The notes beneath the pieces were generated by a model. That model did no database searches, had not been told where the DNA came from, and saw only the letters and a list, made by a program, of their open reading frames with translations. Below are positions 40,974 through 44,051 of a DNA stretch of 64,000 nucleotides, one piece after another; positions within the stretch are counted from its first letter, which is position 1, and every line of letters starts with the position of its first letter. The stretch spans positions 1-64,000 of the forward strand of contig NZ_FQWO01000007.1 in the NCBI RefSeq assembly GCF_900129705.1, read 5' to 3'. Origin of the DNA: Flavobacterium granuli. GTDB taxonomy: Bacteria; Bacteroidota; Bacteroidia; Flavobacteriales; Flavobacteriaceae. The position numbers were made by a program, and so were the translations under genes.

Positions 40974-40981
40974 TACTTTTG
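40974..40981 (+). promoter_or_regulatory. Candidate -7 element for the TlpA-like lipoprotein
   Basis: TACTTTTG followed by CA matches TAnnTTTG, 31 bases before the ATG at 41012. The 300-base gap upstream (40712-41011) holds nothing else recognisable. Confidence 0.45.
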
Positions 40982-41011: not shown

Positions 41012-41788
41012 ATGAAAAAAATAGTTTTATTACTTTCAGCTACTGTTGTTTTTATTTCTTGTAGCAAAGTCGGAAAAGATGAATTCCTAATCACAGGTAC
41101 TGCAACCGGTATTGAAAACGGGAAAACAATAATCCTGGAAACACCTGATGAAAACGGTATGGGAGTAGTTTCTATCGATACTGTAAAAGTTGAAAACGGT
41201 AAATTTGAAATCAAAGGAAAAGTTACCGAACCTTCTTTCCACATGTTACAATTAGAATCAGAAGCTGGTAAAGCCCCTTATTCTAAAGTTCTTTTTATCC
41301 TGGAAAACGGAGAAATCAATATTGCTATAGACAAAGACAGTATCCATAAATCTAAAGTTTCAGGCACTTACAGCAATGACGAGTATGCTAAATTTAATGA
41401 AGAGATGAAAGTAGTTCAAAAGAAACTAATGGATTTTCAAAATAAAAACATGCAAGCTATGAAAACAGCACAAGAAACTAAAGATACTGCTGTTATCAAT
41501 AATCTAATGAAAGGCTATTCAAAAATACAAGAAGAAGTAGGTGTTGCGTCTAAAACAAAATACACAACTTATTCTGAAACACACCCAAAATCATTCATCA
41601 GTGTTTTAATCGTACAAGGAATGCTTAATGACCCAAGTGCTGATATTAAAAAAACAGAAGCAATTTACAATAGCTTAGATGAAACTTTAAAAAATTCTAA
41701 ACCAGGTAAAGCTATAAAAACGAGACTTACTGAAATGAAATCGCCTTCTGTTGGTGCCAGTGCTCCAGCTGTAGGTGACGCTAAATGA
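41012..41788 (+). CDS. DUF4369-type lipoprotein: N-terminal part of a TlpA-like thioredoxin protein, ended by in-frame TGA
   Basis: This 258-residue frame has lipobox FISCS (Cys near residue 17), a DUF4369-like beta domain (about 24-125: FLITGTATGIENGKTIILE) and a helical linker. It ends at TGA (41786-41788) right after GASAPAVGDAK. The same frame stays open beyond the stop and encodes a complete thioredoxin domain, so the ancestral protein was a membrane-anchored TlpA/ResA-like disulfide reductase of about 393 residues. As written it makes only the non-catalytic half. One base change, a sequencing error or recoding could explain it. Confidence 0.75.
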   Translation: MKKIVLLLSATVVFISCSKVGKDEFLITGTATGIENGKTIILETPDENGMGVVSIDTVKVENGKFEIKGKVTEPSFHMLQLESEAGKAPYSKVLFILENGEINIAIDKDSIHKSKVSGTYSNDEYAKFNEEMKVVQKKLMDFQNKNMQAMKTAQETKDTAVINNLMKGYSKIQEEVGVASKTKYTTYSETHPKSFISVLIVQGMLNDPSADIKKTEAIYNSLDETLKNSKPGKAIKTRLTEMKSPSVGASAPAVGDAK

Positions 41789-42193
41789 ACTTCTAATTTT
41801 TCTGCTCCTAATCCTGACGGAAAAGTCATTTCTCTAAAAGAGAGCTTAGGAAAAGTTACCATTGTAGATTTTTGGGCGTCTTGGTGCGGTCCTTGTCGTC
41901 AAGAAAATCCTAACGTAGTGGCAATCTATAAAGAGTTTCACTCAAAAGGATTAAACATTATAGGAGTTTCACTAGACAAAGATGCTGCTAAGTGGAAAGA
42001 AGCCATTGCAAAAGATAAATTAACCTGGACTCAGGTTTCTAATCTGAAGTTTTGGGATGAACCGATAGCCAAACAATACCAAGTTGAATCTATTCCTGCT
42101 ACTTTTATTCTGGATGCTTCCGGAAAAGTAGTTGCAAAAGACTTAAGAGGCGACGAACTTAGAGCAAAAATCAAAGAACTTTTGGCTAAATAG
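41789..42193 (+). pseudogene. Thioredoxin (TlpA/AhpC-TSA) half separated from its start by TGA
   Basis: Reading on in the same frame gives TSNFSAPNPDGKVISL, the redox centre FWASWCGPCRQ, LNIIGVSLDKD and SIPATFILDASGK, ending at 42193. All parts of a TlpA-like thioredoxin domain are intact, including both Cys of WCGPC and the cis-Pro (IPAT). No good internal start gives a whole domain: the ATG overlapping the TGA runs into a stop after three codons, and the first GTG (41918) lies beyond the CxxC. Either recently inactivated or rescued by read-through. Confidence 0.7.
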
Positions 42194-42214: not shown

Positions 42215-42242
42215 AAAATCTCCCTAGTGGAGATTTTTTTTT
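42215..42242 (+). terminator. Terminator of the TlpA-like gene
   Basis: AAAATCTCC pairs with GGAGATTTT around CTAGT, then a T run. Confidence 0.88.
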
Positions 42243-42367: not shown

Positions 42368-42451
42368 GGGGAGATACTCAAGCGGCCAACGAGGGCAGAC
42401 TGTAAATCTGCTGTGAAAACTTCGCAGGTTCGAATCCTGCTCTCCCCACCA
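42368..42451 (+). tRNA. tRNA-Tyr (GTA)
   Basis: The acceptor stem GGGGAGA pairs with TCTCCCC. A D arm (CTC/GAG), an anticodon stem GCAGA/TCTGC with loop CTGTAAA (anticodon GTA), a long class II variable arm, and a T arm GCAGGTTCGAATCCTGC follow. Discriminator A at 42448 is followed by encoded CCA. Downstream lies an integrase gene, so the 3' part of this tRNA is the likely integration target of the ICE. Confidence 0.97.
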
Positions 42452-42740: not shown

Positions 42741-44051
42741 ATGTTAGAGAGCAGCTTTGGGTTGGTTTTCTTTTTGAAAATCCCCCGCAATGAAAGTAAA
42801 ATTAGAACAGTTTATCTTAGAATAACTGTAGATGGAATCCCTAAGGAAACATCCACCAAACGAAAATGGGACAGCGCCCGCTGGGACCAGAAAACCGAAA
42901 GGGCTATCGGCACCAAAGAAGATGCGAGATCCCTTAACTTTTTTCTGGATTCACTGATTTTAAAAATCAATGAATACAAGACCGACATCATGTACAGCGG
43001 AAAACCGATAACTTCCCAAAAGATCATGGATTACATATTAGGAAACGTTACTCCAAGGGTTAAAGTACTAGAAGAATTTCAAAAACATAATGATGAAATG
43101 ACTGCCTTACTGGGAAAAGGATATGCTAAAGGAACTCTTGATCGTTTTACCATTACGATAAATCATTTAAGGTCATTTATTCGATTTAAATTTAATACTG
43201 ATGATATTGAATTTACAGATCTAAATCTTGAATTTATTAAGGACTTTGAGTTTTACCTGAGAACAGTGCGAAATTGCAGCAACAATACCACGCTTAAATA
43301 CATTGCTAATTTTAAAAAAATTGTCATTCGTGCAATCGATAAGGAAGTCATCCTAAAAGACCCTTTTAAAAACTTTAAAAGCCGAAAAACCAAAATAGTT
43401 AAGAAACCTCTTTCCACACAAGAACTGTATGAATTGGAAAGGCATTATTTTACCACAGAAAGACTTAATGTCGTCAGAGATGTATTTGTATTCCAATGTT
43501 ACACGGGATTGGCTTACATCGACGCATATCAATTAAAAAAAACCGATATCAAAGATGGTATTGACGGGAATTCTTGGATAATGTCTGAAAGACAAAAAAC
43601 GGGTTCTCCTACAAATGTCCCACTATTGCCTCAAGCACTCAAAATAATTAAGAAATATAAAGAACACCCTCTTTGCTTAAAGCGTGGCACCGTTTTACCA
43701 GTTTCTTCCAACCAGAAAATGAACGAGTATCTTAAAGAGATTGCGACTCTATGCGGTTTTCCCTTCACATTAAATACACATATGGCACGTCGAACCTTTG
43801 GAAGTACAGTTACATTAAACAATAATGTCCCCATTAATGTAGTTAAAGAAATGCTAGGCCATGCTTCTGTTAAACAGACGGAAGCCTATGCCATTACAGA
43901 ACAGGTAACTATTGGACGCGAAATGTCACTGCTCAATAAAAGATTGACTAAAACGTCCTTTAAGATGTCCAAAGTAGATTTAGCTGTACTTTCAAGATTA
44001 GAAAAAGATATAAAAACAATTAAGGAAAAATATAATATACCCTCATCTTAA
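42741..44051 (+). CDS. Tyrosine recombinase / ICE integrase
   Basis: This 436-residue protein has an N-terminal arm-binding domain (about 1-95), a SAM-like core-binding domain (about 100-215) and a catalytic domain. Visible catalytic residues are a Lys in QKTG, H347 and R350 (HMARR), H374 (LGHAS) and nucleophile Y383 (TEAYAI). At the first Arg position the sequence is TGLAYID, without Arg, as described for IntDOT-type Bacteroidota integrases. It should integrate and excise the element at the 3' end of tRNA-Tyr, 290 bases upstream. Confidence 0.93.
   Translation: MLESSFGLVFFLKIPRNESKIRTVYLRITVDGIPKETSTKRKWDSARWDQKTERAIGTKEDARSLNFFLDSLILKINEYKTDIMYSGKPITSQKIMDYILGNVTPRVKVLEEFQKHNDEMTALLGKGYAKGTLDRFTITINHLRSFIRFKFNTDDIEFTDLNLEFIKDFEFYLRTVRNCSNNTTLKYIANFKKIVIRAIDKEVILKDPFKNFKSRKTKIVKKPLSTQELYELERHYFTTERLNVVRDVFVFQCYTGLAYIDAYQLKKTDIKDGIDGNSWIMSERQKTGSPTNVPLLPQALKIIKKYKEHPLCLKRGTVLPVSSNQKMNEYLKEIATLCGFPFTLNTHMARRTFGSTVTLNNNVPINVVKEMLGHASVKQTEAYAITEQVTIGREMSLLNKRLTKTSFKMSKVDLAVLSRLEKDIKTIKEKYNIPSS

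Follow-up and report, generated by a model that had tools for sequence, protein, structure and literature searches.

The gene at positions 41012-42193 of the forward strand, in the 64,000-nucleotide stretch of Flavobacterium granuli DNA analysed here (the window), is a single open frame broken only by a TGA at 41786-41788 (codon 259), after which 134 sense codons lead to a TAG. Is a gene of this form damaged, misread in sequencing or whole, and, if whole, how is the part behind the stop made? An earlier note, written from the sequence alone, had offered three options: a fresh nonsense mutation, a sequencing error, or read-through producing two forms. Here we compare the gene with its homologues in Flavobacterium and weigh these and other explanations.

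Organization of the gene and position of the TGA

The note's description of a TlpA-like thioredoxin lipoprotein split by an in-frame TGA agrees with both the reading frame and the Pfam assignments. Two domains of such a lipoprotein, DUF4369 and TlpA/AhpC-TSA, score above their cut-offs (Table 1), a CXXC motif is present, and a signal peptide with lipobox cysteine (Cys17, 41060-41062) was assigned by eye. Cys17 is invariant in 36 aligned sequences, as are the W, both C and the P of the WCGPC motif, which lies within the 134 open codons as the note had said. In its thioredoxin half the protein is similar to ResA and to thiol-disulfide oxidoreductases of Bacteroides. An AlphaFold2 model made with 36 sequences has a mean pLDDT of 86.5 and a pTM of 0.57, with pLDDT below 50 at residues 245-253 and 255-258; codon 259 is thus predicted to fall at the end of a low-confidence linker, consistent with the note's placement of the stop between the two domains. 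The sequence of this linker is variable between TGA carriers. Upstream of the gene lies TACTTTTG, which we take to be a putative promoter element of the Bacteroidota TAnnTTTG type.

Table 1. Features of the lipoprotein gene and its flanks, in window coordinates.
Feature	Coordinates	Strand	Basis
Promoter-like element TACTTTTG	40974..40981	+	Fits TAnnTTTG motif
Zero-frame short product (258 aa): lipoprotein signal, DUF4369, helical region, linker; stop TGA	41012..41788	+	
DUF4369 domain, residues 25-125	41084..41386	+	Pfam PF14289, 71 bits against a cut-off of 25
Ala/Pro/Gly-rich low-confidence linker, immediately 5' of TGA	41744..41785	+	pLDDT
Putative recoding site AAA TGA ACT (pre-stop codon, TGA, A-starting next codon)	41783..41791	+	Conservation
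Thioredoxin/TlpA-like domain (AhpC-TSA), residues 261-375	41792..42136	+	Pfam PF00578, 76 bits against a cut-off of 26
WCGPC redox motif	41882..41896	+	Sequence
GTG, first in-frame ATG/GTG/TTG after TGA, 3' of WCGPC	41918..41920	+	ORF listing
TAG, end of full-length frame	42191..42193	+	Sequence
Inverted repeat then T run, intrinsic-terminator-like	42217..42235	+	Sequence only

The bare pattern of a stop between two long open frames is not unusual. Seven in-frame stops of the window, this one included, are flanked on both sides by 100 or more open codons, and the other six are all TAA; what lifts the TGA at 41786-41788 above chance is its conservation in 133 of the 286 Flavobacterium genomes with a homologue. 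TGA also serves as an ordinary stop elsewhere in the window, as the note had stated: the 55 open reading frames (orfs) kept by a simple filter end in TAA (40), TGA (8, this gene included) or TAG (7).

Downstream of the gene are a tRNA-Tyr gene (42368-42451) and a 436-aa orf (42741-44051) that resembles a tyrosine recombinase by eye, so that a mobile element may sit at the tRNA adjoining the lipoprotein gene.

Conservation of the TGA across Flavobacterium

A six-frame search of 299 Flavobacterium genomes found homologues in 286 and no homologue match in 13. The same in-frame TGA is present in 133 of the 286, and in all 128 of the full-length or near full-length homologues with at least 69% identity; these counts are not independent, as most carriers belong to one clade. 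The 133 carriers comprise 126 full-length rows (at least 69% identity) and seven others: G179 and G246, which have the TGA plus a later TAA or frame break, G269, where it stands alongside other frame breaks, G073 and G103, where it is on fragments at contig ends, and G279 and G196. The F. frigoritolerans and F. tiangeerense records have the TGA, and one-contig genomes are among the carriers.

The DNA of 94 carriers was taken (the best 30 of the 126, 60 of the remaining 96, and L051, L052, L055 and L062), and the stop is TGA in every one. Among 250 random pairs from 89 carriers (the alignment excludes L051, L052, L055, L062 and L088), pS is about 0.6 in both domains, so that synonymous sites are near saturation, and pN/pS is 0.165 for the thioredoxin domain, 0.324 for the N-domain and 0.564 for the linker. 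These ratios indicate that the thioredoxin half is under purifying selection even though it follows a stop codon. A stop drifting neutrally would not be expected to remain TGA in 94 of 94 genes with so low a downstream pN/pS, and a site at which any stop sufficed should include TAA. A conserved stop (94/94 TGA) followed by conserved coding sequence in the same frame (pN/pS 0.165) is the pattern of programmed read-through.

Comparison with close strains, one of the checks that the earlier note had proposed, separates its three options. Both the fresh nonsense mutation and the sequencing error are refuted by a TGA that recurs in 133 genomes of the genus and in 94 of 94 genes at the DNA level, and read-through giving two forms is the option that is supported. 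Nothing favours an accident in one strain except the view from a single genome; against it are the other carriers, one-contig genomes included, and the purifying selection on the downstream half, and its probability is practically negligible.

Beyond the genus, 249 genomes of the family were drawn, of which 176 gave a match at E 1e-40 and 73 gave none; among the 150 matches listed, the only TGA carriers are the F. granuli genome itself and one congener. Other genera of the family may have split genes, given the 73 of 249 genomes without a match at E 1e-40 and the 150 matches listed. One thioredoxin-only match (G373:C14) is cut by a contig end, and no frame was obtained for L234.

Nucleotide context of the TGA

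The bases on both sides of the TGA are strongly constrained in the 94 carriers: base -2 is A in all 94 and base +4 is A in 93. Immediately before the stop, AAA stands in 71 genes, AAC in 20, and AAG, CAA and CAC in one each. Asn before the stop is always AAC (20/20), against 666 AAC (36%) and 1162 AAT elsewhere in these genes. The codon after the TGA is AGA or AGG in 74, ACT in 9, AGT or AGC in 9, and ATA and GGA in one each, so that the residue itself varies (Arg, Ser, Thr, Ile, Gly). No CGN or TCN codon directly follows the TGA in any of the 94; Arg at this position is AGA/AGG in 74 of 74 and Ser is AGT/AGC in 9 of 9, although elsewhere in the carrier genes CGN makes up 64 of 317 Arg codons and TCN 1767 of 2323 Ser codons. 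A varied residue with a codon that starts with A in 93 of 94 genes argues for a constraint on bases, not on amino acids. A conserved stop context of this kind (A at -2, A at +4, codon bias on both sides) is a further mark of programmed read-through.

Within the same set, the full-length frame ends in TAA (87) or TAG (7) and never in TGA (0/94), in a scan that halted at TAA, TAG or a further TGA.

In E. coli, a UGA followed by A is leaky to tRNA-Trp, and in yeast read-through is promoted by adenines before the stop. According to passages of PMC11126739, no stop in E. coli is as leaky as TGA, which is decoded mainly as Trp and secondarily as Cys, and more often in the cold or when nutrients are depleted; G after the stop is named there as lowering termination efficiency, whereas the base at the Flavobacterium site is A.

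No consensus RNA structure was found after the UGA (RNAalifold, about -0.6 kcal/mol over the 120 nt that start at the UGA, 90 carriers). Folded one sequence at a time in 30 of the 90 carriers and scored against single-base shuffles, the downstream stretch has a mean z of -0.8, the 90 nt 5' of the TGA -2.22, and two control stretches -1.43 and -0.75. Structure upstream may have a role. With no consensus structure downstream, the signal would be the short context alone, which may give modest read-through.

Two other features of the codons around the site were seen. AGG accounts for 20 of the 74 Arg codons after the TGA and for 10 of the 317 Arg codons at other positions of these genes, which suggests that this rare codon is favoured after the stop. 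Lys or Asn precedes the TGA in 92 of 94 carriers, and the C-terminus of the short form is often Lys or lies close to a run of Lys.

A poly(A) frame change in other species

In a subset of the genus, the N-domain and thioredoxin matches are separate and lie in different frames. Thirty such stretches were taken, and 22 were counted as split genes (L322-L341, L343, L344); excluded were L342 and L347, in which the thioredoxin motif was not found by search, L345, which is continuous, L346, L348 and L349, which have the TGA, and L350 and L351, which were judged not orthologous. Relative to the N-domain, the thioredoxin domain is shifted to the -1 frame in all 22, and where the two frames overlap, in the linker, there is a run of nine (9 genes), ten (8) or eleven A (5), with the N-frame stop 0 to 46 nt after the run. 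Each of the 22 thus has the nine or so A, at least, that mark a slippage site at a frame change, nine being the usual length in passages of PMC1088944. The longest coding A run is eight both in the 94 TGA genes and in 63 comparison genes (60 fused, of which 4 are named records that may duplicate others, and 3 TGA). Elsewhere in the split genes, there is one more A8 run in each of L333, L343 and L344, and L340 and L341 have a second A9 run 5' of the start codon. The thioredoxin half of the 22 has a pN/pS of 0.269 over 100 codons.

None of the 22 has a TGA at the joint, and with its thioredoxin domain out of frame by -1 behind an A9-A11 run, each depends on transcriptional slippage or -1 ribosomal frameshifting to connect the halves. 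All 22 contain the slippery heptamer A AAA AAN in the zero frame, which any run of this sort would supply; ribosomes could also shift to -1 on it, but would not require nine A. At length nine, selection against transcriptional slippage is evident in a large share of bacterial genomes, according to passages of PMC1088944. A homopolymer sequencing error is unlikely, because all 22 shift in the same direction and the single-contig genomes G210, G118 and G238 are among them. As far as these homologues indicate, the alternative to the UGA is a poly(A) run with a frame change at the same linker, which is invisible from the window alone. The split genes also have a KKK shortly 5' of the N-frame stop.

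Evolution of the two devices

Neither device is present in 131 of the 286 genomes, as judged from the rows seen; these are mostly plain fusions, some of uncertain orthology and several with tandem copies, and they imply that two products are not needed everywhere. On a gene tree of 98 rows, the TGA label needs three changes, forced by well-supported branches, and the carriers fall into a main clade, the pair L055/L177, and L062, in which the TGA is a few codons farther from the thioredoxin core. On a 78-row tree with the linker omitted, parsimony gives nine changes for the three states TGA, slippage and fused, six for slippage alone and three for TGA alone; some deep branches are weak in both trees, and gains and losses are indistinguishable in these counts. 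The presence of two unrelated devices at a single linker is an argument that selection favours making both forms; selection appears to act on both products and not on one mechanism.

Two adjacent copies of the gene are present in nine genomes with neither device (G001, G284, G058, G067, G072, G131, G213, G231 and G245).

Alternative explanations for the conserved UGA

The two halves might also be produced without an amino acid being inserted at the UGA. Ribosomes could stop there and the thioredoxin fragment be started independently, as two distinct domains would allow, but in the window the first ATG, GTG or TTG after the TGA is already past the WCGPC, so that the thioredoxin half needs read-through. 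The ATG that overlaps AAATGA is in another frame and is absent where the pre-stop codon is AAC (20/94), and a fragment started separately would be without a signal peptide. The split genes point the same way: their thioredoxin frame has no ATG, GTG or TTG before the WC in 8 of 22, and in the other 14 the starts, 65-129 nt after the run, were judged to be inside the domain. Separate initiation is accordingly very improbable. Hopping of the ribosome over the stop, or a double frameshift across it, would fit the fixed bases on both sides of the UGA; however, no landing codon that matches the pre-stop codons was seen directly behind the UGA on inspection, the frame is the same before and after it, and according to passages of a review (PMC5009743) no natural in-frame stop hop is known, all of which makes these routes very improbable. 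A different reading of the codon itself is selenocysteine, since the UGA lies within a thioredoxin-fold protein, a common setting for selenoproteins. The machinery was sought and not found: SelB exceeds its cut-off in 0 of 60 genomes, F. granuli included (2 of 14 control genomes exceed it), with sub-threshold matches in 60 of 60 sized like EF-Tu and other factors, and tRNA-Sec, searched with the stricter filters meant for more than 40 genomes, exceeds its cut-off in 0 of 37 genomes of the genus (F. granuli, the best score of which is 38.4 bits against a cut-off of 47, included), in 2 of the 60 genomes, both from other families, and in 5 of 14 controls. The UGA moreover falls in the low-confidence linker with the CXXC intact, the fused homologues displayed have no Cys at its position, and RNAalifold found no consensus stem-loop after it in the 90 carriers; selenocysteine is hardly conceivable here.

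It could instead be the cell, and not the site, that is special. The earlier note had thought a changed genetic code unlikely, and we concur: prfB is present with its usual frameshift signal, and ARAGORN reads no UCA anticodon in any of the genome's 46 tRNA hits. A code with UGA as Trp (table 4) was rejected on the same grounds, RF2 being present and a UCA tRNA-Trp absent among the 46. A dedicated suppressor tRNA meets the same objection. A generally leaky UGA in Flavobacterium is suggested by the tRNA-Trp, which has a G27-U43 wobble atop the anticodon stem and a U11-A24 pair (by eye; L265, L266, L302-L321); the E. coli passages of PMC13092985 connect UGA read-through with a broken top anticodon-stem pair and with G24A, but do not contain the G27-U43 and U11-A24 variants themselves. 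Against this, both variants occur whether or not a genome carries the TGA, RF2 is encoded with its own UGA-dependent frameshift at the usual CTTTGAC site, and TGA terminates 8 of the 55 window orfs. Either form of this explanation is unlikely. A carrier-specific tRNA-Trp was likewise rejected: F. granuli has two identical tRNA-Trp(CCA) genes, the same sequence is present in 11 other carriers and in 4 of 9 non-carriers (the other five have small changes), and nothing in trans therefore marks the carriers.

The F. granuli prfB (L299) keeps an AGGAGG...CTTTGAC signal; the phylum Bacteroidota is naturally without Shine-Dalgarno sequences, as stated in the abstract of PMC6847099.

Proposed mechanism

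We propose, with a probability of roughly 0.78, that the TGA is a conserved functional recoding site from which a short lipoprotein and a read-through redox protein are made, with poly(A) slippage taking its place elsewhere. Ribosomes that obey the UGA would release a 258-residue lipoprotein consisting of DUF4369 and a helical region. Others would read the UGA in its leaky context (A, A or C, UGA, A), most likely by near-cognate tRNA-Trp(CCA) inserting Trp, and yield a 393-residue product that has a TlpA/ResA-like thioredoxin domain on a flexible linker. In the 22 other species, slippage at A9-A11 (or -1 ribosomal frameshifting) would join the same domains. That read-through takes place is highly probable on the conservation data; Trp is probably the main residue inserted, and the short form may well have a function. 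The occurrence and frequency of read-through, the identity of Trp and the role of the short form are points that we infer from sequence. As a guess, DUF4369 could serve as a scaffold or binding module, functional both when joined to the redox domain and alone.

A TGA kept in over a hundred species, where others have a poly(A) run and a shifted frame in that linker, offers a natural experiment on why a cell wants two forms of a protein through recoding. Such genes, perhaps called pseudogenes or two orfs by annotation pipelines, are probably whole. A more speculative view, and one we hold to be rather doubtful, is that decoding fidelity acts as a control knob on an envelope redox protein and that two unrelated mechanisms gave rise to this device several times within a single genus: the rate of UGA misreading or of poly(A) slipping would set the ratio of thioredoxin-bearing to thioredoxin-less lipoprotein. 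If so, cold, starvation, RF2 or the modification state of tRNA would alter the disulfide chemistry of the envelope.

Comparison with known systems

To our knowledge, conserved stop-codon read-through in a cellular bacterial gene outside the selenoproteins is hardly documented. Phage Q-beta has a conserved stop followed by a conserved extension in the same frame. Conserved read-through in animals has the same two features, but in Flavobacterium the extension is a whole catalytic domain and the gene is bacterial. No paper on this gene was found in the open-licence full texts, a collection outside which most subscription papers and all bioRxiv preprints lie. The main text of a survey of conserved frame changes (PMC3711429) does not mention thioredoxin, redoxin, TlpA or Flavobacteri-.

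The closest parallels are single genes with a short and a long product. Passages of PMC1088944 describe dnaX of Thermus thermophilus and E. coli, whose homologues use A9 transcriptional slippage in one case and ribosomal frameshifting in the other and so likewise act at different levels. In Thermus dnaX the standard frame gives the full-length product, whereas in the Flavobacterium gene it gives the short form; moreover, the alternative to slippage here is a stop codon, and the switch occurs within one genus. Shigella mxiE, in the same passages, also has two orfs in different frames and needs homopolymer slippage for its long product, but it is a different gene with a different homopolymer, and a stop-codon version of it is not mentioned there (PMC1088944). 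At the retroviral gag-pol joint, some viruses use read-through and others -1 frameshifting, much like the Flavobacterium linker, according to passages of PMC5009743; that is a virus gene with a stimulatory pseudoknot in the case described, while ours is chromosomal and no downstream structure was found. As for the thioredoxin half, the Bacteroides oxidoreductases 3fw2 (38% identity, Foldseek E 6.9e-13) and 3fkf share the thioredoxin domain, and are chains of about 150 residues with this domain only.
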